Assembly (NCBI RefSeq): GCF_000686525.1
Contig: NZ_JMKT01000009.1
Coordinates: forward strand, 62,001-126,000
Reading direction: 5' to 3'
DNA: 64,000 nt
From: Desulfonatronovibrio hydrogenovorans DSM 9292
GTDB taxonomy: Bacteria > Desulfobacterota > Desulfovibrionia > Desulfovibrionales > Desulfonatronovibrionaceae
Shown here: positions 1,344 through 21,106 of the stretch, piece after piece
Layout of the letters: each line of letters begins with the position of its first letter
How positions within the stretch are numbered: position 1 is the first letter of the stretch
The notes under the pieces: model-generated
Databases searched by the model: none
Told to the model about the DNA's origin: nothing
Seen by the model: only the letters and a program-made list of their open reading frames with translations
Program-made: the position numbers and the translations under genes

Positions 1344-2792
1344 ATGCCTGAAAGACCGGAGATGAATGAAGTTGCAACCACCCAGGATGGCCGGGATATA
1401 ACCAGGGGTTACCTGTCTCCCCTGGAGCTGATGCAGCCCGAGGACAAGGTGCTGATGCGCCGGGGAGGCGGGGACCTGCAGGTTTACGAGGAGCTGAAGC
1501 GGGACGATCAGGTTTCAGCCAACTGGGGGAGCCGTCAGGACGCCCTGGTTCAGGCGGAATGGTATGTCGAGCCTGGGGGCGACACTGTACATGACAAGAC
1601 GGCTGCCGATTTTCTGCGCGAGCAGCTGCAGCAGATAAACTTTGATGCCTTGACAAAACGCATGCACTACGGGGTTTTCTACGGATATGCCGTGGCTGAA
1701 TGCCTCTATGTCAGAGACGGCAGGCACGTGGCCCTGGGGGATATCCGGGTGCGCAACAGGCGCAGGTTCGGCTTTGACGGAGCCGGACGGCTTCGGCTGA
1801 AAACACATTCCCAGCCAATGGGTGAGCTGATGCCGGAACGCAAGTTCTGGGTGTACAGCGCCGGAGCCGATCACGATGACGAACCCTACGGCCTGGGCCT
1901 GGGCCATTATCTTTACTGGCCGGTATTTTTCAAGCGCTCCGGTTTGCGGCTGTGGTTGATATTTCTGGACAAGTTCGGCCAGCCCACAGGCAAAGGCAAG
2001 TATCCGGCCAACGCCACGCCCCAGGAAAAGCAAAGGCTTTTGGATGCGTTATCGGCCATACATACCGAGTCCGGCGTAATTTTGCCCGAGGGCATGGATG
2101 TGGAGCTCATCGAAGCCGCCCGCAGCGGAACCGCTGATTATGCGTCCCTGTATGACCGTATGGACAAGGCTATCAGCAAGGTGGTCCTGGGACACTCCGG
2201 ATCTGCGGATTCAACCCCCGGCCGCCTGGGCGGTGAGGACATGGCCAGCCATGTGCGCGACGACATTGTAAAGGCGGATGCGGATGTGATCTGCGAGTCA
2301 TTTAACAGGGGTCCGGCCAGGTGGCTGGTGCAGTGGAACTACCCAAACGCGGCCACGCCCAAGGTCTGGAGAAAGCTGGAGCAGCCGGAAGACCTGGGCA
2401 AGGTGGCAGAACGAGACGAGCGAGTGGCCCGCCTGGGATTCAAGCCCAGCCTGCAATACATACGCGATACATATGGCGATGGATGGGAGGATGACCCGGC
2501 AAAACATCAAGTGCCGGCCGCTTCTTTTTCCGAGCGAGAGGACGAGGTCCCCAAAAGGCTGGCGGATCAGCTGGAGTCAGAAAGCGATACCGCTATGGAC
2601 CGGATGATTGACGCGGCCAGATCGGCCATAGATGAGGCCAACACCCTTGAGGAAGCCAGGGGCAGAATCACAGAGATGTTTGACGAGGTGCCGGATGACC
2701 AGCTGGCCAGGATAATGCAGAAGGCCGTGGCCGCATCCATGCTGGCCGGGATGTTTGAGATTGCCGAAGAGTCGGGGGATACGGAGGGCTGA
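1344..2792 (+). CDS. Phage portal protein, Mu gp29 / DUF935 family
   Basis: The portal forms the dodecameric ring at the head vertex through which DNA enters and leaves. The 482-residue product matches the usual length of DUF935 portals. It has family-typical segments such as the WYVEPGG region near residue 73, a GLRLWLIFLDKFGQPTGKGKYP stretch near residue 200 (given only in part here: FLDKFGQPTGKG), and a Ser/Thr-rich GHSGSADSTPGRLGGEDMAS region near residue 285. The start codon follows the terminase stop directly and is preceded by GGAGG. The stop overlaps the next start (TGATG), so the genes are translationally coupled. Function is assigned by family similarity and position. Confidence 0.93.
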   Translation: MPERPEMNEVATTQDGRDITRGYLSPLELMQPEDKVLMRRGGGDLQVYEELKRDDQVSANWGSRQDALVQAEWYVEPGGDTVHDKTAADFLREQLQQINFDALTKRMHYGVFYGYAVAECLYVRDGRHVALGDIRVRNRRRFGFDGAGRLRLKTHSQPMGELMPERKFWVYSAGADHDDEPYGLGLGHYLYWPVFFKRSGLRLWLIFLDKFGQPTGKGKYPANATPQEKQRLLDALSAIHTESGVILPEGMDVELIEAARSGTADYASLYDRMDKAISKVVLGHSGSADSTPGRLGGEDMASHVRDDIVKADADVICESFNRGPARWLVQWNYPNAATPKVWRKLEQPEDLGKVAERDERVARLGFKPSLQYIRDTYGDGWEDDPAKHQVPAASFSEREDEVPKRLADQLESESDTAMDRMIDAARSAIDEANTLEEARGRITEMFDEVPDDQLARIMQKAVAASMLAGMFEIAEESGDTEG

Positions 2793-13575: not shown

Positions 13576-14617
13576 AGACCAGGTTATACTGCAAATCGGA
13601 ACACAAAGGCACCAGGGCTGGCAGGAAATTGAGATCCGCCGCAGCCTGGAGCAGATAGCTGACAGGTTCGAGCTGGCATTGACCGAGCGCTGGAGCGATG
13701 ACGGCACTACCCAGGCCCGACCGATACGCCCGGGGGAAAAGTGCAAGGTCTACCTGGGTGATGACCTACTGCTTACCGGGCACCTGGATGACGTGCTGCC
13801 GGATTATGACGCGGAGCGCCACCGCATTGTCGCCAGCGGCAGGTCCCTGGCAGGAGACCTGGTTGACTGCTCCGGGCAGGAAAAGAGGTGGGAAAACCGC
13901 ACCCTGGTGCAGATAGTCCGCGCTATTTGCGAGGAATACGGCCTGGATGTGATCGACGAGGCCGGGGCGGACAAAAAGATCAGTCATTTTTCCATCGAGG
14001 ACGGGGAAAGCCCGGCTGAGGCAATCGGCAGGGCCGCAAAAAACAGGGGTGTGCGGGTGGTCTCAGACCCTCGGGGCAGCCTGATCATTACGGATGCGCA
14101 GCGGCGCAGCGTAGGCACTGCCCTGGAGCTAGGCGTCAATGTGCTGAGCGGCCGGGGTGAGTTTTCCGACCGGGACCGCTTTGCCGAATACATAGTTGAG
14201 GGGCAGAGTCCTGGTACAGACTGGTTTTTCGGCGAGGCAGTCGCCGCTCCCAGGGGCCGGGCTAAAGATCCCAGGATCAGGGGGAGCAGGCGGGTGCTGG
14301 TGGTTGCCGATACTGTAGTCGATCGGGCCGACTGTCGCCAGCGCGCGGAGCTGGAGTCACGTGTTCGCTGGGCGCGGGGGCGCGGCATAACGTACACCGT
14401 TGTCGGCTGGCGGCACGAGCATGGTGTATGGAGACCGGGGGATATGGTTCCGGTAAAAGACGCTTATATGGGCCTGGACAAGGAAATGCTCATATCCGAT
14501 GTGCAGCTCCTGGATGATGAGCAGGGCCGCAGGGCCGAGCTGAGGGTCAACCCTCCGGAGGCATTTGAGCGGGTACCCGTTCCAGAGCCGGAGCCCGAAG
14601 AAACGGGGTGGTGGTAA
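13568..14617 (+). CDS. Baseplate hub protein (Mu gpP, gp44-like)
   Basis: A T4 gp27-like hub that connects tail tube to spike. The 349 residues match Mu gp44 in length. Typical segments include GWQEIEIRRSLEQIADRFEL near residue 16, the YLGDDLLLTGHLDDVLPDYD strand pair near residue 60, and SGRSLAGDLVDCS near residue 90. It begins with GTG overlapping the N gene by eight bases, an arrangement consistent with translational coupling. It ends in a TAATG overlap with the spike gene. Confidence 0.9.
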   Translation: MFKDQVILQIGTQRHQGWQEIEIRRSLEQIADRFELALTERWSDDGTTQARPIRPGEKCKVYLGDDLLLTGHLDDVLPDYDAERHRIVASGRSLAGDLVDCSGQEKRWENRTLVQIVRAICEEYGLDVIDEAGADKKISHFSIEDGESPAEAIGRAAKNRGVRVVSDPRGSLIITDAQRRSVGTALELGVNVLSGRGEFSDRDRFAEYIVEGQSPGTDWFFGEAVAAPRGRAKDPRIRGSRRVLVVADTVVDRADCRQRAELESRVRWARGRGITYTVVGWRHEHGVWRPGDMVPVKDAYMGLDKEMLISDVQLLDDEQGRRAELRVNPPEAFERVPVPEPEPEETGWW

Positions 14618-15264
14618 TGAGTACAATGCGCCGGATCATGCAGCGGACCACAGCCCCCATGTGGCGCAGGATTCGCCTGCTGGTGAGCCGTGCAGTGGTC
14701 AAGATTGTTGATGATTCAGTTAAGATGCAGGCAAGCCAGGTGACCATGCAGGGAGGCTCCCCTGCCTGGGCGGAGAGATTTCAGAATTACGGCTTTACAT
14801 CGCACCCGTTGAGCGGGGCCGAGGGCATCGCCCTCAGCGTGGGCGGGGTCCGGGAGCATCTGGCACTGGTCGCAGTTGACGACCGCCGTCATAGAAAGAC
14901 CGGGCTCCAGCCCGGAGAGGTGGCCATGTACACGGACGAGGGGGACGAGATAGTTTTTAAGCGTGGGCGGGTTATAAGCGTAAAGGCCGGGTCCGCTCTG
15001 CAGGTGGAGGCTCCGGGCGTGGATGTGGACTGCGAAACGGCAAAGGTGTCCGCGTCCGGGTCTGTGGAGGCGGACACACCCCTGTTCACCGTCACCGGAA
15101 AGCTGGTGGTTCAGGGGGGCATGGAGGTCAGCGGGGGCGACGGCGCCCAGGTTCAGGGCGGATTTCATGCCACCAAAGATATAGTGGCCGGAAATATATC
15201 CCTGCAGAACCACGTCCACGGCGGAGTGGAAACCGGAGGGGCAACCACGGAGGGGCCGCAGTAA
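14617..15264 (+). CDS. Baseplate spike / assembly protein (Mu gp45-like)
   Basis: A central spike protein that pierces the host outer membrane. The N-terminal part (residues about 1-110) contains the family's FQNYGFTSHPLSGAEGIALS region, which corresponds to the Mu gp45 OB-like domain. The middle is a beta-rich segment of short hydrophobic strands. The C-terminus (SLQNHVHGGVETGG) is the His-containing tip motif, with HxH residues that in Mu-type spikes bind a metal ion. Start chosen at the ATG that overlaps the hub stop (TAATG), giving 215 residues; a GTG nine bases upstream is less likely. Confidence 0.9.
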   Translation: MSTMRRIMQRTTAPMWRRIRLLVSRAVVKIVDDSVKMQASQVTMQGGSPAWAERFQNYGFTSHPLSGAEGIALSVGGVREHLALVAVDDRRHRKTGLQPGEVAMYTDEGDEIVFKRGRVISVKAGSALQVEAPGVDVDCETAKVSASGSVEADTPLFTVTGKLVVQGGMEVSGGDGAQVQGGFHATKDIVAGNISLQNHVHGGVETGGATTEGPQ

Positions 15265-15707
15265 TGGATTTCGGACTGTTTGTGACAACCGACGGGCAAG
15301 TGGACATGCAGGTCCGTGACGGAGATATAGGGCCGGACAACACGCTGCAGACCGCTGTTATCCTGTCTTTGCTTACTGATCGCAGGGCTCACCCGGACGA
15401 CGACCTGCCCGAAAGCGGCGGAGATCTAAGGGGATGGTGGGCGGATACATTTTTTGATCGGCCTGTCGGCTCAAGGTTGTGGCTGCTGAGTCGGGAAAAG
15501 GAGGCGGCAGAGGTTCGGCGCAGGGCTGAGCATTACGCACGTGAGGCCCTGGAATGGCTGGTTGAGGACGGCGCAGCCCGGAAGTTGGGTGTAGAGGCAG
15601 TGCATGTCCGGCGCGGTGTTTTGGGGCTCAAGATTCGCATACATAAGCCGGACGGGTCCAGCGAGGAAATGATGTTTGAATACGCCTGGGAGGCTATGGA
15701 GGCTTAA
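15264..15707 (+). CDS. Baseplate wedge protein, GP46 family (Mu gp46-like)
   Basis: A 147-residue member of the GP46 family, related to T4 gp25, which starts sheath assembly on the baseplate. It shows the family's DGDIGPDNTLQTAVILSLLTD region, the GWWADTF motif near residue 53 and the GSRLWLLSREK segment. It is coupled to the spike gene by TAATG and is followed directly by the baseplate J gene. Confidence 0.92.
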   Translation: MDFGLFVTTDGQVDMQVRDGDIGPDNTLQTAVILSLLTDRRAHPDDDLPESGGDLRGWWADTFFDRPVGSRLWLLSREKEAAEVRRRAEHYAREALEWLVEDGAARKLGVEAVHVRRGVLGLKIRIHKPDGSSEEMMFEYAWEAMEA

Positions 15708-16757
15708 ATGGGTTTTAAACGGCCAAGCTTGCAGGAACTGGTGCAGCGCGTTGACCAGGACATTCTGGGCAGGCTGCCCGAGACTAGGGCTGATCTGGAC
15801 AAGAGGCTGGGCAGGGTGCTGGCGGCTGTTGAGGCTGGTGCCGTGCACGGACTCTATGGATATCTGGAGTGGATAGAGGGGCAGATGTTTCCCCAGACCT
15901 GTGATGATGACATGCTGCATATCCACAGCGCCGGAGTGCCCAGGCGCGAGGCGTCCAAAGCCTCGGGCAAGGTGGTATTTACAGGCGAGGACGGCGATAT
16001 AGTTCCCGAGGACCTGGCCCTGGAAGCGGACGATGGCCAGGAATACATTACCGTGGAAACCGGGGAGATCCAGGACGGTGAGGCCATTGTCAGCGTGGAA
16101 GCGGTGGAGCCCGGCGCAGACGGCAACCAGGATGCAGGGGCGTCCCTTTCTCTGGTTTCCCCGGCTGCAGGGATAGATTCCGAGGCCGAGGTGGGCGAAG
16201 GCGGCCTGGACGGAGGTGCTGACCGCGAAAGCATTGACGGCTGGCGGGAGCGGATTCTGCGACGCAGGGAGCGCATACCCAGGGGCGGCGCGGCAGGCGA
16301 CTGGGAAGACTGGGCTCTGGAGGTCATCGGCGTAACCAGGGCCTGGGAGGACCCCAAAGGCATGGGGCCTGGCACAGTCGTGGTGCGCATCGTGGCCGAC
16401 GATGCCGAGGATGGGCCGCAACCGCCTGCACAGCTTCTGGAGGAGGTGCAAACGCATATTGATGAGGCCCGCAATGTGCTGGCGGATGTATATGTGGTGG
16501 CCCCTGATCTGATTGATTTTAAGCCGGAAATAGAGCTCTCCCCGGACACCCCGGAGCTGCGCAGTATGGTTGAGGAAAACGTGAAGGATTTTGTTCGCAG
16601 GGAAGGACGGCCCGGCGGCAAACTCAAGATCTCCCGGCTGCGGCATGCAATCAGCGCTGCCGGTGATGTAGAGGACTACGATATGCAGTGGCCTACTGAG
16701 GATGTGGAATACGGCACCGGAGAGCTGCCCGTTTTCGAGGGGGTTGTATGGCTGTAG
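15708..16757 (+). CDS. Baseplate J-like protein (Mu gp47-like)
   Basis: A T4 gp6-like wedge component. The 349-residue product has the Baseplate_J pattern: an N-terminal helix region, YLEWIEGQMFPQTCDDDML near residue 50, a duplicated beta-domain with VSVEAVEPGADGNQDAG near residue 125, and the WRERILRRRERIPRGG segment near residue 183. The last residues overlap the next gene by ten bases. Confidence 0.93.
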   Translation: MGFKRPSLQELVQRVDQDILGRLPETRADLDKRLGRVLAAVEAGAVHGLYGYLEWIEGQMFPQTCDDDMLHIHSAGVPRREASKASGKVVFTGEDGDIVPEDLALEADDGQEYITVETGEIQDGEAIVSVEAVEPGADGNQDAGASLSLVSPAAGIDSEAEVGEGGLDGGADRESIDGWRERILRRRERIPRGGAAGDWEDWALEVIGVTRAWEDPKGMGPGTVVVRIVADDAEDGPQPPAQLLEEVQTHIDEARNVLADVYVVAPDLIDFKPEIELSPDTPELRSMVEENVKDFVRREGRPGGKLKISRLRHAISAAGDVEDYDMQWPTEDVEYGTGELPVFEGVVWL

Positions 16758-17371
16758 GCAGGCCCGATTACAAGGCAATACTGACCGCCCTGCTGCCCCC
16801 GGGAACAGCTTTGGCCGGAAGGCGGGACAGCGTACTGCAAAGGCTCCTGGATGGCTTGTCCAGGGAACTGGAGCGAGTGGACAGCCGCTCCAGGACCATG
16901 CTGGGCGAGGCAGATCCGCGCCGGGCCAGAGAGCTTTTCGGAGAATGGGAGTCCAGTTTTGGGCTGCCCGACGACTGCGCCCCGGATGAGCAGACAATGA
17001 CTGAGCGGCGCCAGGCTTTGCTTGGCCGGATCGTAAGCCGGGGGGGGATGCGCCCCCAGGACTACAAAGATCTGGCTGCAGGGCTGGGTTATGACGGGGT
17101 GGAGATTATTGAGCACCGCGAGGCTGTCATCGGATGGTACGACGGCCCCGGGCATGCAGGCGCGGAAATCGGCGACGCGCTGAACGGCGAGGAGTGGAAC
17201 CATGCCTGGGATGCCCTGATCCCCGAGGGTGTTGTGCGGCAGTCGGTTATTTCCGAGGCCGAGATCGGGGACGCGCTGCGCTCATGGGGGGACGATCTCA
17301 TAGAATGCGTTCTGCATAAGGCAGCCCCGTCATGGGGATATTTAAATGTTGCATATATCGAGGAGGATTAA
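16748..17371 (+). CDS. Tail protein, Mu gp48 / DUF2313-like
   Basis: A 207-residue baseplate-fibre connector of the DUF2313 (YmfQ-like) family. Visible traits are the N-terminal LLPPGTALAGRRDSVLQRLL, the LFGEWESSFGLPDDCAPD segment near residue 60, and RRQALLGRIVSRGGMRPQDY near residue 85. The C-terminal part resembles the YHMxxP-type beta-region. It is the last recognisable Mu-order gene before the fibre/retroelement region. Confidence 0.9.
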   Translation: MAVGRPDYKAILTALLPPGTALAGRRDSVLQRLLDGLSRELERVDSRSRTMLGEADPRRARELFGEWESSFGLPDDCAPDEQTMTERRQALLGRIVSRGGMRPQDYKDLAAGLGYDGVEIIEHREAVIGWYDGPGHAGAEIGDALNGEEWNHAWDALIPEGVVRQSVISEAEIGDALRSWGDDLIECVLHKAAPSWGYLNVAYIEED

Positions 17372-17641
17372 ATGGAAAAGATCGGCGCATACACTGACAG
17401 GGTAACGCCAGAGGATGGATGGCGCGAGGGAGATCCGGCCGCTAACGTCCGGGCAACACCTTTGCTGGCCGAGTATTTCAACATGCTGCAGCGTGAGCTT
17501 ATTAATGTGCTCGCTGATGCAGATTTGGTCCCGGCAATTGGAGAGGAAGATCAGCTCGCGCAGGCTATTAATGTGATTGCTGCCCGCAGGGCTGTGGGCA
17601 TGGTTGAGGGAATACCGGTAATTGCAGTTGAGGAGGAATAA
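17372..17641 (+). CDS. Tail-fibre N-terminal-like small protein
   Basis: An 89-residue protein. Its middle (WREGDPAANVRATPLLAEYF followed by a helix MLQRELINVLADADL) resembles the attachment domain at the N-terminus of Mu-type tail fibres, where a GDP..GV.AT segment precedes a Leu-rich helix. The rest of a fibre is missing, so this looks like a fibre base cut down to its attachment domain, now followed by the retroelement target gene. It follows gp48 directly. Confidence 0.55.
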   Translation: MEKIGAYTDRVTPEDGWREGDPAANVRATPLLAEYFNMLQRELINVLADADLVPAIGEEDQLAQAINVIAARRAVGMVEGIPVIAVEEE

Positions 17642-17986
17642 ATGAGAGGAATCCCTGAGGTTTTAAAAACAAAGGCTGACTATGAACGAGCGCGAGCCCT
17701 TTTTTTGTCGGGCGACCTGCCGGAGCGTGACAAGCAGCGGGCCAAAAGGCACTGGCAGTCCCTGCTATACAGGTGGGCATGGTCTTTTGACAAAGAGATT
17801 GAATCTGAAGAGCAGGCAGATTCGGGCGATCAGTATCGTGTCGTCAAGGAGCATGATGAAGGGACTGGAGAGCTGGTGCGAATGGTTCAGGAGGTGCGAC
17901 TGGAAGATCCTCAGTCTCGGATTTTCAGGCTTGGATTCACTGTTCAGGAAGTTGAGGCTGCAATCTTGGAAATGGAGGGTGAATAA
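17642..17986 (+). CDS. Hypothetical protein before the retroelement target
   Basis: A 114-residue protein, rich in Arg, Glu and Gln, with a WQSLLYRWAWSFDKE segment near residue 39. It has no family that could be recognised. It lies between the fibre-base-like gene and the diversified target, overlapping the target start (TAATG), so it is likely co-translated. A role as fibre chaperone or adaptor for the target protein is inference from position. Confidence 0.65.
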   Translation: MRGIPEVLKTKADYERARALFLSGDLPERDKQRAKRHWQSLLYRWAWSFDKEIESEEQADSGDQYRVVKEHDEGTGELVRMVQEVRLEDPQSRIFRLGFTVQEVEAAILEMEGE

Positions 17987-18981
17987 TGTCAAAAGTGTAC
18001 GCTATTCCAGCAACTGGTGCTGGTCATATAGAGCTGATGGGCCGGGTCAAAAAGGGAGCGGGCAGCACCCTGGATATCCCTGAGGGCCTGGTTAATATTG
18101 GCGGGAATGGCAAGGGCTTTATTTTGCAGGCTCAGAATGGATTTGATCCTTTGGCGCACGATGACGGCAGTGTTGTTTCGCTGGAAGTCGGGGACGACAT
18201 CTATGTCTATGCTGTTTGGCCGGATGACGATGGGCCAATTTGCCAGCTAAAAACCTCCAGGAATACGACCTGGCCAGGTGGATATAACGCTGACAACAGC
18301 CGTCGCCTGGCTGGCTTTCATTATGGCCGATACAGGCTGCTGGAGCACAGGTATCAGGCAGGAGAGGCCGCCCAGGAGGGCATTATCCCCAACAGCGTCT
18401 GGGATCTCCTTCACCGGCCAAAATGTGAGCCGACCGGCATGGTGGAGATCATCGAGGGCTCGGTCTGGATGGACATCTACCTGAACAGCGTAGATGGTGC
18501 CTCTTGGCCCGAGACTAAGGGCGAATCTAAAATCAATGCTCAGCCGGTGAACTGCAACGATGTGGCCAGGTGGGATTTTTTCAGGCTGGCCAGGAATGCC
18601 GGGAAGCGGTTGCCGACGCTTGGCGAGATGTACATTGCAGCATACGGCGTTCCCCAGGGAGCCACTGGAGCCGGTGGCCGGGTGAATACGGGCGTCCATA
18701 CAGATTATGGGTTTGATTGTGTGTCTTGCCTGGGCCTTGACCAGCCCAGTGGAAACTTGTGGCAATTCCTTGATGATGGCGCAGACGATCAGGGGAGCTA
18801 CCAGGGAGCCAATCAGGGGCAAGACAGCGCGCACAATCATGGTCAAGCCAGAATGCGCCACTCGATTTTCGGCGGCTATTGGACGAACTCGTCCGAGGCC
18901 GGAGCCCGTTGCGCGACCAACTCTCTCCCGTGGAATCAGGGTGGCGGCTACGGCTTTCGTGGCGCCTGCGATTCCCTGTAA
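17986..18981 (+). CDS. DGR target protein, receptor-binding (C-type-lectin/FGE-like C-terminus)
   Basis: The 331-residue protein is the substrate of the retroelement. Its N-terminal half is beta-rich with a segment (YNADNSRRLAGFHYGRYR) near residue 101 that recurs in DGR targets. Residues about 195-331 form an FGE-sulfatase/C-type-lectin-like domain: WDFFRLARNAGKRLPTLGE near residue 200, SGNLWQFLDDGA near residue 254, and the terminal GGYWTNSSEAGARC ... GFRGACDS. The variable repeat encodes residues about 292-328. Residues that differ from the template are 294, 298, 310, 311, 313, 314, 319, 321 and 322. Position after baseplate and fibre-base genes makes it the tail-tip adhesin, by analogy with Mtd of Bordetella phage. 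Confidence 0.92.
   Translation: MSKVYAIPATGAGHIELMGRVKKGAGSTLDIPEGLVNIGGNGKGFILQAQNGFDPLAHDDGSVVSLEVGDDIYVYAVWPDDDGPICQLKTSRNTTWPGGYNADNSRRLAGFHYGRYRLLEHRYQAGEAAQEGIIPNSVWDLLHRPKCEPTGMVEIIEGSVWMDIYLNSVDGASWPETKGESKINAQPVNCNDVARWDFFRLARNAGKRLPTLGEMYIAAYGVPQGATGAGGRVNTGVHTDYGFDCVSCLGLDQPSGNLWQFLDDGADDQGSYQGANQGQDSAHNHGQARMRHSIFGGYWTNSSEAGARCATNSLPWNQGGGYGFRGACDSL
18856..18971 (+). repeat. DGR variable repeat (VR)
   Basis: 116 bp at the 3' end of the target gene align without gaps to the template repeat at 19376-19491. Thirteen positions differ and all are adenines in the template: 6 now read G, 4 now read T and 3 now read C or equivalent non-A bases across the set. The last 22 bp (18950-18971) are unchanged and GC-rich, as expected for the initiation-of-mutagenic-homing region. 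Homology stops abruptly after 18971. Confidence 0.95.
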
Positions 18982-19008
18982 ATCTGAAATCTGGAATCTG
19001 AAAATCTG
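18981..19008 (+). repeat. Four AATCTG direct repeats between VR and avd
   Basis: AATCTG occurs at 18981, 18988, 18995 and 19003, a spacing of 7, 7 and 8 bp, filling the whole gap between the target stop and the avd start. No coding role is possible. Its place directly after VR suggests a cis element for homing, but this is inference. Confidence 0.6.
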
Positions 19009-19020
19009 ATGCAGAATTTT
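19001..19020 (+). other. Imperfect hairpin around the avd start codon
   Basis: AAAATCTG pairs with CAGAATTTT (one bulged A), giving an eight-pair stem with the ATG of avd as its loop. Some DGRs need a hairpin or cruciform just after VR for efficient homing; this one lies 29 bp after VR and could also limit avd translation. It is weak in GC content. Confidence 0.35.
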
Positions 19021-19368
19021 ACGCTTTATCAAAAGATTGACGACATGAGCAACTATCTGTTTCCGGTGGTGGAAAGGTTTCCAAAATCAGAAAAGTTTGC
19101 CCTTTGCACTCAGATAAAAAATTGTGTCCATACAATGATCATGAATGTGATCAGGATGCAGAAGATTCACCCCAAGAACATCAGGGAAAAGCTGAGGTGG
19201 GCAAGGGAAACTGACTGCCGCCTGGAGATGCTTCAGCACTTCATTCGGCACGCCCATTCTCGACGCTACCTGAGCAATAAGAGGCTCAGGTTAATTACGG
19301 AAAAACTGGTTGAATTGGGCCGCATAATCGGCGGCCTGATCCGGCGGTTTTCAGGGGCGCATTCATAA
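19009..19368 (+). CDS. avd: DGR accessory variability determinant (Avd-like)
   Basis: Avd forms a basic five-protomer barrel of four-helix bundles that binds the reverse transcriptase and the template RNA. The 119-residue product is all-helical with a net positive charge. It carries the typical LYQKIDDMSNYLFPVVERFP opening and FALCTQIKNCVHTMI helix, and ends with LVELGRIIGGLIRRF, which resembles the C-terminal helix of Bordetella Avd. It lies between target and template repeat, the standard place. The ATG lacks a clear ribosome-binding site and sits in a hairpin loop. Confidence 0.88.
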   Translation: MQNFTLYQKIDDMSNYLFPVVERFPKSEKFALCTQIKNCVHTMIMNVIRMQKIHPKNIREKLRWARETDCRLEMLQHFIRHAHSRRYLSNKRLRLITEKLVELGRIIGGLIRRFSGAHS

Positions 19369-19658
19369 ACATTACCGCCACTCGAATTTCGGCGGCAATT
19401 GGACGAACTCGTCCGAGGCCGGAGCCCGTTGCACGAACAACAATCAACCGTGGAATCAGAATGGCAACAACGGCTTTCGTGGCGCCTGCGAACCCTTTAC
19501 AGGTTCGTTCGACAGGCCAGGGTCATGGCCCTGCCTGCTTGCGATCCTTCTTGGAATCGGGAATGCGTTCCTCTCCACGTTGGAGGAAGATAAACAGACC
19601 CTGGCGGCAAGTAGCCTTATGGCCAACGTGGCCGGGGTCATTATATAAAGGATTTTTC
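19369..19658 (+). ncRNA. Putative DGR template RNA region
   Basis: The interval between avd and the reverse transcriptase has no gene. It holds the template repeat plus a 167-base spacer up to the RT start. In Bordetella phage DGR, RNA spanning the avd 3' end, TR and the spacer upstream of RT is the primer and template for cDNA synthesis. The same layout here supports a functional RNA, though its ends are not visible. Confidence 0.55.
19376..19491 (+). repeat. DGR template repeat (TR)
   Basis: 116 bp identical to VR except at 13 adenines out of 29 in the repeat; none of the other 87 positions differ. Adenines are concentrated in AAY codons, at the positions matching residues 294, 298, 311-313, 319, 321 and 322 of the target. 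Random change at the first two bases of AAY codons cannot create a stop codon. The 3' end (GGCTTTCGTGGCGCCTGCG) has no adenine and is preserved in VR. Confidence 0.95.
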
Positions 19659-20699
19659 ATGCCTAGATCTGTTGGGAGTATTTATGACGAAGTGGCCGAC
19701 TGGGATAATCTCCTCCTGGCTTGGCGTAAGGCCAGAGCTGGGAAGAGATATACTGACGAGGTTCTGAGGTTCTCCAGGAGATGGGAAGAGGGCCTGTTGA
19801 ACATTCACAACCATCTGGTCTGGCAAACCTGGGAGCCTCAGCCGCTCCGGACCTTTTGCGTGTACAGGCCGAAGCTGAGGCTGATCGAGGCGCCCGCCTT
19901 TTCTGACCGGATCGTGCATCATGCTTTGAATAATATCGTTGAGCCTGTTTTTGAGCGGCGATTTGTTTTTGACTCCTATGCCTGCAGGAAGGACAAGGGC
20001 ACTCACAGGGCTGTATCCAGGATTCAAAGGTACCTCAGGGCCGCTCATAAGTTATGGGGACAGGCTTATGTGCTGCAGGCCGATATTAGTAAGTATTTTC
20101 CTTCAATATCTCATTCTACCCTGCTCACCCTCGTTGAAAGGGGCGTTCGAGACAGGAGGGCTTTGAAGCTCTGGGAGAAGATTATCGGGGCATGCCGCCG
20201 GGCTGTCGGCCTGCCTATAGGGGCTCTTACATCCCAGCTTTCAGCCAACATATATTTGGACAAAATGGATCATCATATTAAGGATGATCTTGGAATAAGA
20301 TTCTATGCCCGCTACATGGATGACTGGGTTGTTATCGGCAAGGATAAATCAGACCTCAAAGGCCTGCTCAGATATCTTGAGGACTGGCTGTGGGACAACC
20401 TATCCCTGGGCCTGAACCACAAGAGCCGGGTTTATTCGGCTGTTCAAGGTGTTGACTTTGCGGGCTACAGGGCGTGGAGGACGCACGTCTTGCCACGCAA
20501 GAGGAACGTCCGGGCGGCAAGGCGCAGATTCAAAAAGATGGCTAATCTGTATTCCAGGGGAGCGGTAAGCCTTGAGTCTCTTCGCTCTTCGGTTGCCAGC
20601 TTTATCGGCTACGCTAAGCACTGCCAGACCAAGAGGACCACCGAGAGCATGCTGGACGACCTGAGAGGGGCTGGGGTTGATCTCAATATAGCAGTTTAA
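19659..20699 (+). CDS. DGR reverse transcriptase
   Basis: The error-prone reverse transcriptase copies the template RNA with mutation at adenines. The 346-residue product has the palm motifs in order: LQADISKYFPSI with Asp142 (motif A), the DGR-typical IGALTSQLSANIYL (QG-type motif replaced by the TSQ form), and YARYMDDWVVIG with the catalytic Asp221-Asp222 (motif C). It lacks a maturase or endonuclease domain, as usual for DGRs. The start at 19659 was chosen because AAAGGA lies seven bases upstream. An ATG at 19461 in the same frame lies inside TR and would misplace the start. Confidence 0.95.
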   Translation: MPRSVGSIYDEVADWDNLLLAWRKARAGKRYTDEVLRFSRRWEEGLLNIHNHLVWQTWEPQPLRTFCVYRPKLRLIEAPAFSDRIVHHALNNIVEPVFERRFVFDSYACRKDKGTHRAVSRIQRYLRAAHKLWGQAYVLQADISKYFPSISHSTLLTLVERGVRDRRALKLWEKIIGACRRAVGLPIGALTSQLSANIYLDKMDHHIKDDLGIRFYARYMDDWVVIGKDKSDLKGLLRYLEDWLWDNLSLGLNHKSRVYSAVQGVDFAGYRAWRTHVLPRKRNVRAARRRFKKMANLYSRGAVSLESLRSSVASFIGYAKHCQTKRTTESMLDDLRGAGVDLNIAV

Positions 20700-20898
20700 A
20701 TAGGTCAAACTCGTGCCGCTTTACATTTTCTGGCTCAAATCAAAAAATAAACCGTTATTATACCCTGGCTTAACCAGCCAAGCCGACCTAAAAACGGGTC
20801 TTATTTTTCTCATTATGCCTGCAAGATTTTCTCAAGTTGTGTGCAAACTTATAGTGTGAAAAATGGTCAGGGGGTTGGATATGAGGTTGGATAATAAA
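20700..20898. other. Intergenic: prophage right boundary region
   Basis: No gene was found. A short hairpin-like repeat (GGCTT/AAGCC, about 20768-20788) and a GACC/GGTC pair followed by TTATTTTTC (about 20794-20815) could end late transcription, but the stems are short. The prophage-host junction must lie here or just beyond. The sequence TGTGTGCAAAC then AGTGTGAAAAA near 20840-20862 is a loose repeat that might be part of the phage end. This is not established. Confidence 0.4.
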
Positions 20899-20941: not shown

Positions 20942-21019
20942 TGGCGTCCCCACGGGGATTTGAACCCCGGTTACCGGCGTGAAAGGCCGATGTCCTGGAC
21001 CTGGCTAGACGATGGGGAC
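20942..21019 (-). tRNA. tRNA-Glu (anticodon TTC)
   Basis: The 78-base sequence folds as a cloverleaf: acceptor GTCCCCA with TGGGGAC, anticodon loop CTTTCAC giving TTC, and T arm CGGGG-TTCAAAT-CCCCG. The 3' CCA is encoded (20942-20944). The T loop has TTCAAAT, as in standard tRNAs. It resembles bacterial tRNA-Glu throughout. Confidence 0.95.
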
Positions 21020-21032
21020 GCATATTTTTAAC

Positions 21033-21106
21033 TGGCTGGGGGACTAGGATTCGAACCTAGGTTAACGGGGTCAGAGCCCGTCGTCCTGCCGCTAGACGAT
21101 CCCCCA
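21033..21106 (-). tRNA. tRNA-Gln (anticodon CTG)
   Basis: The 74-base sequence has acceptor TGGGGGA with TCCCCCA, anticodon loop CTCTGAC giving CTG, and T arm CTAGG-TTCGAAT-CCTAG, with encoded CCA. It lies 13 bases upstream of tRNA-Glu on the same strand, so the two are one transcription unit. Confidence 0.95.

Follow-up and report, generated by a model that had tools for sequence, protein, structure and literature searches.

The window, the whole stretch of DNA analysed here, comprises 64,000 nt of Desulfonatronovibrio hydrogenovorans DSM 9292 (GCF_000686525.1, NZ_JMKT01000009.1, positions 62,001 to 126,000, forward strand) and belongs to a genome of 2.94 Mb. As this genome carries dsrA, with a score far above the cut-off, the host is a sulfate reducer, as the first-pass annotation had stated. 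Positions 17986 to 20699 were found to hold all the parts of the diversity-generating retroelement (DGR) claimed there, namely target, Avd, template repeat (TR) and reverse transcriptase (RT), in canonical order. The features of the region are as follows.

1344-2792, plus strand: Mu portal protein (Pfam Portal_Mu, 6.6e-102)
14608-17371, plus strand: Mu-like baseplate genes gp45, gp46, gp47 and gp48 (Pfam Phage_Mu_Gp45, GP46, Baseplate_J and Phage_Mu_Gp48)
17372-17641, plus strand: 89-aa protein, 63% identical in phage YPCBV-1
17642-17986, plus strand: 114-aa DGR-linked protein, which adjoins Mtd-like targets in many DGR loci
17986-18981, plus strand: DGR target, an Mtd-like receptor-binding protein of 331 aa (Pfam mtd_2nd, 2.6e-18)
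18856-18971, plus strand: variable repeat (VR), 116 bp, about the last 39 codons of the target, 89% identical to the TR
18976-19008, plus strand: five CTG units read from the sequence, starting at 18976, 18984, 18991, 18998 and 19006
19009-19368, plus strand: Avd, accessory variability determinant, 119 aa (NCBIfam NF033474, 1.2e-22; Pfam bAvd, PF22296, 6.4e-26; PHROG Avd)
19376-19491, plus strand: TR, 116 bp, a direct repeat of the VR at an offset of 520
19492-19658, plus strand: TR-RT spacer RNA (covariation in 8 aligned sequences)
19659-20699, plus strand: DGR reverse transcriptase, 346 aa (PDB 8ub7, E 7.5e-61; PHROG RT, 8e-122)
20803-20835, no strand assigned: right-end repeats TGAGAAAA(A), probable MuA sites, inverted copies of the left-end repeats

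The surrounding genes bear out the description of the element as a Mu-like prophage. The genes immediately upstream of the window include those of a 716-aa MuA-type transposase (rve and Mu-transpos_C domains) and of a 235-aa AAA protein resembling the MuB ATPase, and a CI-like repressor is also encoded upstream. The window itself contains the Mu portal, protease, sheath and tape measure genes and the gp45 to gp48 baseplate genes. Left-end copies of TGAGAAAA(A) occur at about -13971, -13863 and -13821 relative to the window (L023). The repeats have opposite orientation at the two prophage ends and are probable MuA sites. A search for the exact prophage ends (TG...CA) with a 5-bp target-site duplication located neither the ends nor a convincing duplication. 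Genes for tRNA-Glu and tRNA-Gln, at 20942-21106, directly follow the right prophage end. Between gp48 and that end there are only genes of the DGR region, and the target is the final tail gene. This gene order fits the earlier suggestion that the retroelement replaces the usual Mu fibre genes, whereas the former presence of a Mu-type fibre at this position can only be presumed.

The target matched a PHROG tail protein (2e-51), the FGE-sulfatase family, which is C-type-lectin-like (Pfam, 1.3e-5), and the Mtd structure 1yu1 (9.4e-18, or 5e-29 when the family profile was used, with an alignment that reached the VR). Its proposed role as a receptor-binding protein is thus upheld by homology to the Mtd of phage BPP-1, and because the homology extends through the VR it also assigns a C-type-lectin fold to the variable end. 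The AlphaFold model of the target was poor (pLDDT 43) and unusable, so that the exposure of the variable residues is taken from the Mtd homology.

VR and TR differ at 13 positions, and all 13 are adenines in the TR (five changed to T, five to G and three to C); the number of non-adenine mismatches across the whole pair is zero. With adenine at 29 of the 116 TR positions, the chance of such a pattern is about (29/116)^13, or 1.5e-8. Ten in-frame AAY (Asn) codons are present in the TR, and nine residues of the target are altered: N294I, N298Y, T310A, N311T, N313S, Q314L, N319G, N321G and N322Y. Apart from the VR itself, neither a further TR-like copy nor a second VR was found in the 2.94-Mb genome. 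Past the repeats the two sequences part, with TTCCCTGTAAATCTG after the VR and ACCCTTTACAGG after the TR, a difference of the kind that separates IMH from IMH*.

Two small proteins precede the target. A relative of the 89-aa protein is fused to the N-terminus of an Mtd-like target in locus L155 (read through at L155:3073-4305), and the same fusion appears to exist in L171 and L172. Because a related sequence forms the target N-terminus in L155, the 89-aa protein probably serves as the base on which the receptor-binding protein stands. In L155 and L171 the 114-aa gene precedes the fusion, and its product is a probable fibre adaptor or chaperone. Searches of Pfam, PHROGs, NCBIfam and PDB gave no match for its family (105-117 aa); the structural model was confident (pLDDT 92), and a fold search with it returned one uncharacterised myovirus protein (E 3e-3).

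The frames of target, Avd and RT are all open, and the DGR appears intact, as it had at first reading. Avd passed the curated cut-off of NF033474 (80.2 bits against 80). The longest RT reading frame opens at 19461, inside the TR, and TR and spacer sequence makes up its first 66 codons; the protein most likely begins at the ATG at 19659. The RT carries PIGALTSQ in motif 4 and a YMDD box, and the SQ of motif 4 is invariant in alignment with the BPP-1 RT, to which the protein is 38% identical. Among PDB entries, the solved DGR RT 8ub7 is the closest to it. The spacer RNA, aligned from the window and seven relatives, has 45 consensus pairs, of which 21 show compensatory changes; in BPP-1 this RNA has the tasks of recruiting RT-Avd and of priming the cDNA (PMC12875486). 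The post-TR stretches of DGR loci often begin their TR-RT spacer with CCAGAAG and CCAGTGC boxes flanking a hairpin, an arrangement that takes a variant form in the window's clade.

In DGRs a GC-rich stem-loop with a GRNA loop is nearly always present downstream of the VR and is not strictly required. Within 90 nt after the VR, the window has no GC-rich stem that reaches 5 bp (z = -0.9), and the stem-loop is also missing in most of the nearest relatives. Directly after the VR lie the five CTG units, spaced 8, 7, 7 and 8 and reading CCCTGTAAATCTGAAATCTGGAATCTGAAAATCTG. The first unit follows the last CTG within the VR at a spacing of 10, the last abuts the avd start codon, and the array is absent after the TR. 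In BPP-1 the stem-loop acts as an efficiency element and is not absolutely required (PMC12875486). Homing there is nevertheless greatly lowered when it is lost.

We conclude, with a probability of roughly 0.93, that the locus is a complete BPP-1-type phage DGR, in which TR RNA would be copied and the cDNA would replace the VR, and which has as its target the final tail gene of a Mu-like prophage. Activity and receptor switching are what we infer for it, and a BPP-1-like mechanism is suggested by homology with that phage. By this analogy, TR RNA together with its structured spacer would be copied into cDNA by an RT-Avd complex, with random bases entering opposite adenines. The cDNA would then replace the VR, so that the tip of the Mtd-like receptor-binding protein would vary while the TR stayed constant. 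The 89-aa protein would serve as the base that carries the target, and the 114-aa protein may assemble it.

Two other explanations were weighed against this reading. An ordinary gene duplication beside a group II intron-like or defence RT might be entertained because of a match of the RT to the generic NCBIfam model for group II RTs (3e-40). That match reaches 138 bits, however, far below the cut-off of 300 and the roughly 400 bits of true group II RTs, and neither the adenine-only mismatches nor the presence of Avd accords with such an origin. In the RT tree the DGR clade was split from group II intron RTs at 100/99, with the window RT inside the DGR clade; together with the PDB match, this places the enzyme with the DGRs, and we regard the duplication hypothesis as refuted by these results. 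The system could also be a DGR that was once active and is now frozen, its VR a fossil of the last homing event. Consistent with decay are the lack of a stem-loop after the VR and the single known copy: no second sequenced copy of the phage was found in collections, the IMG/VR match L025 being the same genome with identical sequence, and the prophage DGR was absent from all five same-genus genomes searched. Yet all three reading frames and the RT motifs are intact, the non-adenine mismatches that drift would add are missing, the pairs of the spacer RNA and the five-unit array have been kept, and most of the closest relatives likewise do without a stem-loop. Decay is accordingly improbable, and a complete BPP-1-type DGR remains our reading of the locus.

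The Bordetella phage BPP-1 DGR, mtd-avd-TR-brt, has the same order and parts, with Mtd and RT homologous by search and Avd by family model. It differs in that the phage is not Mu-like, a GAAA stem-loop follows the VR, and the IMH has two or three CTG/TTG units as against five in the window. A closer counterpart is the Chromohalobacter phage YPCBV-1 (OP380511), described in PMC9769972 as a DGR-bearing Mu-like phage. Its genome ends with the identical order of gp45-46-47-48, 89/90-aa protein, 114/116-aa protein, Mtd-like target, Avd, TR and RT. The baseplate proteins of the two phages are 49-59% identical, the 89-aa protein 63% and the target 43%, whereas the RT is only 35% identical, the Avd of YPCBV-1 was not alignable with that of the window by tblastn, and YPCBV-1 has a stem-loop after its VR. 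YPCBV-1 ORF53 (L047:3995-5044) has been published as an auxiliary metabolic gene encoding a SUMF1/EgtB-type non-heme iron enzyme; this gene, however, includes the VR and is the DGR target, so that a metabolic role is improbable.

A Mu-type baseplate, an Mtd-like target and a DGR RT are joined in 16 further IMG/VR loci, which show the same order at least in part. Mu-like prophages with a DGR have also been reported in group B of Desulfovibrio piger, a sulfate-reducing host (PMC12724379); these resemble the window in their Avd-like protein and FGE-sulfatase-type target with a VR, a likeness drawn from their published description. The hankyphage is likewise a Mu-like transposable phage carrying a DGR (PMC6199706), although its target is of unknown family, and the record of the Mu-like Bacillus phage BalMu-1 contains a DGR with both an array and a stem-loop-like repeat. 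In view of YPCBV-1, the IMG/VR loci, D. piger, the hankyphage and BalMu-1, the first-pass opinion that such a system is little described in a Mu-like context does not hold; the locus adds a sulfate-reducer prophage to an already known group of Mu-like phage DGRs.

While the window's baseplate and 89-aa protein have their closest counterparts in YPCBV-1, its Avd and RT have other affinities. They are nearest to those of L026-L031 and L061 (47-62% and 52-57% identity, respectively), most of which are on phages with other baseplates. The IMG/VR loci L026-L031 and the prophage DGRs of Natronospirillum and Terasakiispira share the target at 45-51%, Avd at 47-61% and RT at 52-56% identity, and the same post-VR array, mostly without a stem-loop; by contrast, the baseplate and fibre genes of the carrier phages are not of the window's Mu type. 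These comparisons show the window to be a mosaic, with a baseplate of the YPCBV-1 type and an Avd/RT module from a different lineage. The module has been exchanged between types of phage, and the baseplate adaptor has remained in place.

The array after the VR was then compared across DGR loci. Among 97 distinct post-VR stretches, from loci of shared ancestry gathered by similarity to the window's RT, 217 [ACT]TG pairs were spaced 7 or 8, where random stretches taken from these loci (not matched intergenic positions) would lead one to expect 16.6. Strict 7-8 chains of three or more were present in 59 of the 97, where about 1.5 were expected and where the 3' boundary of the VR, set by adenine-tolerant matching of VR/TR pairs, is uncertain by a few bases; [CT]TG spacings of 3-6 and 9-12 were at chance level. 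When one locus was taken per 70%-identity RT cluster, [CT]TG chains of at least three occurred in 59% of post-VR, 0% of post-TR and 2% of random stretches, and with one locus per 50%-identity cluster the values were 40%, 0% and 1%. The array is a tandem NTG, mostly ATCTG, with a 7-8-nt period in most of the phage DGRs examined, and the modal chain has four to five units. ATG takes the place of CTG in some phages with the period unchanged. Arrays are spread across many DGR clades of the tree and are not found in the most divergent ones.

In BPP-1, the direction of transfer is set by an IMH element of 21 bp that differs from the TR at five positions (PMC3240598). All five differences can be seen in the BPP-1 record, where three abolish the middle CTG(A) in a series that reads CTG-10-CTG-7-TTG. 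Because of this, and because the window repeats the spacing of 10, we propose the array as the general form of the IMH mark. The odds seem to us about even that phage DGRs are in general marked by a tandem NTG (mostly ATCTG) array of 7-8-nt period directly after the VR and absent after the TR, that a multimeric Avd-RT complex would probably read this array, and that in the window's lineage the array alone, without a stem-loop, marks the target. The array might instead be imagined as a leader or regulatory element of avd, whose start codon its last CTG abuts in the window. We consider that unlikely: in many loci avd is separated from the array by a stem-loop and tens of bases, the array is positioned directly after the VR, and the natural IMH/IMH* differences of BPP-1 fall within it.

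Two further ideas about the array, which we have just proposed as an IMH mark, were not supported. Pairing with the CCAGAAG box of the spacer RNA was set aside because phages with ATG-type arrays retain the CAGA box (5/5). Nor does the array appear to be a general substitute for the stem-loop, the occurrence of the two being independent (Fisher p 0.22). In the openly readable literature on IMH and target recognition, which takes in few subscription papers and figures, the passages found do not describe such an array.

To our knowledge, a single phage, with its stretch of 21 bp, offers the only detailed account of why the VR rather than the TR is the recipient. Of these results, it is the array that most deserves specialist attention. 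If it is general and countable, DGR targets would become recognisable without a TR match, DGRs that have no stem-loop would be easier to explain, and a short element would be at hand for testing in the E. coli DGR reporters that already exist.
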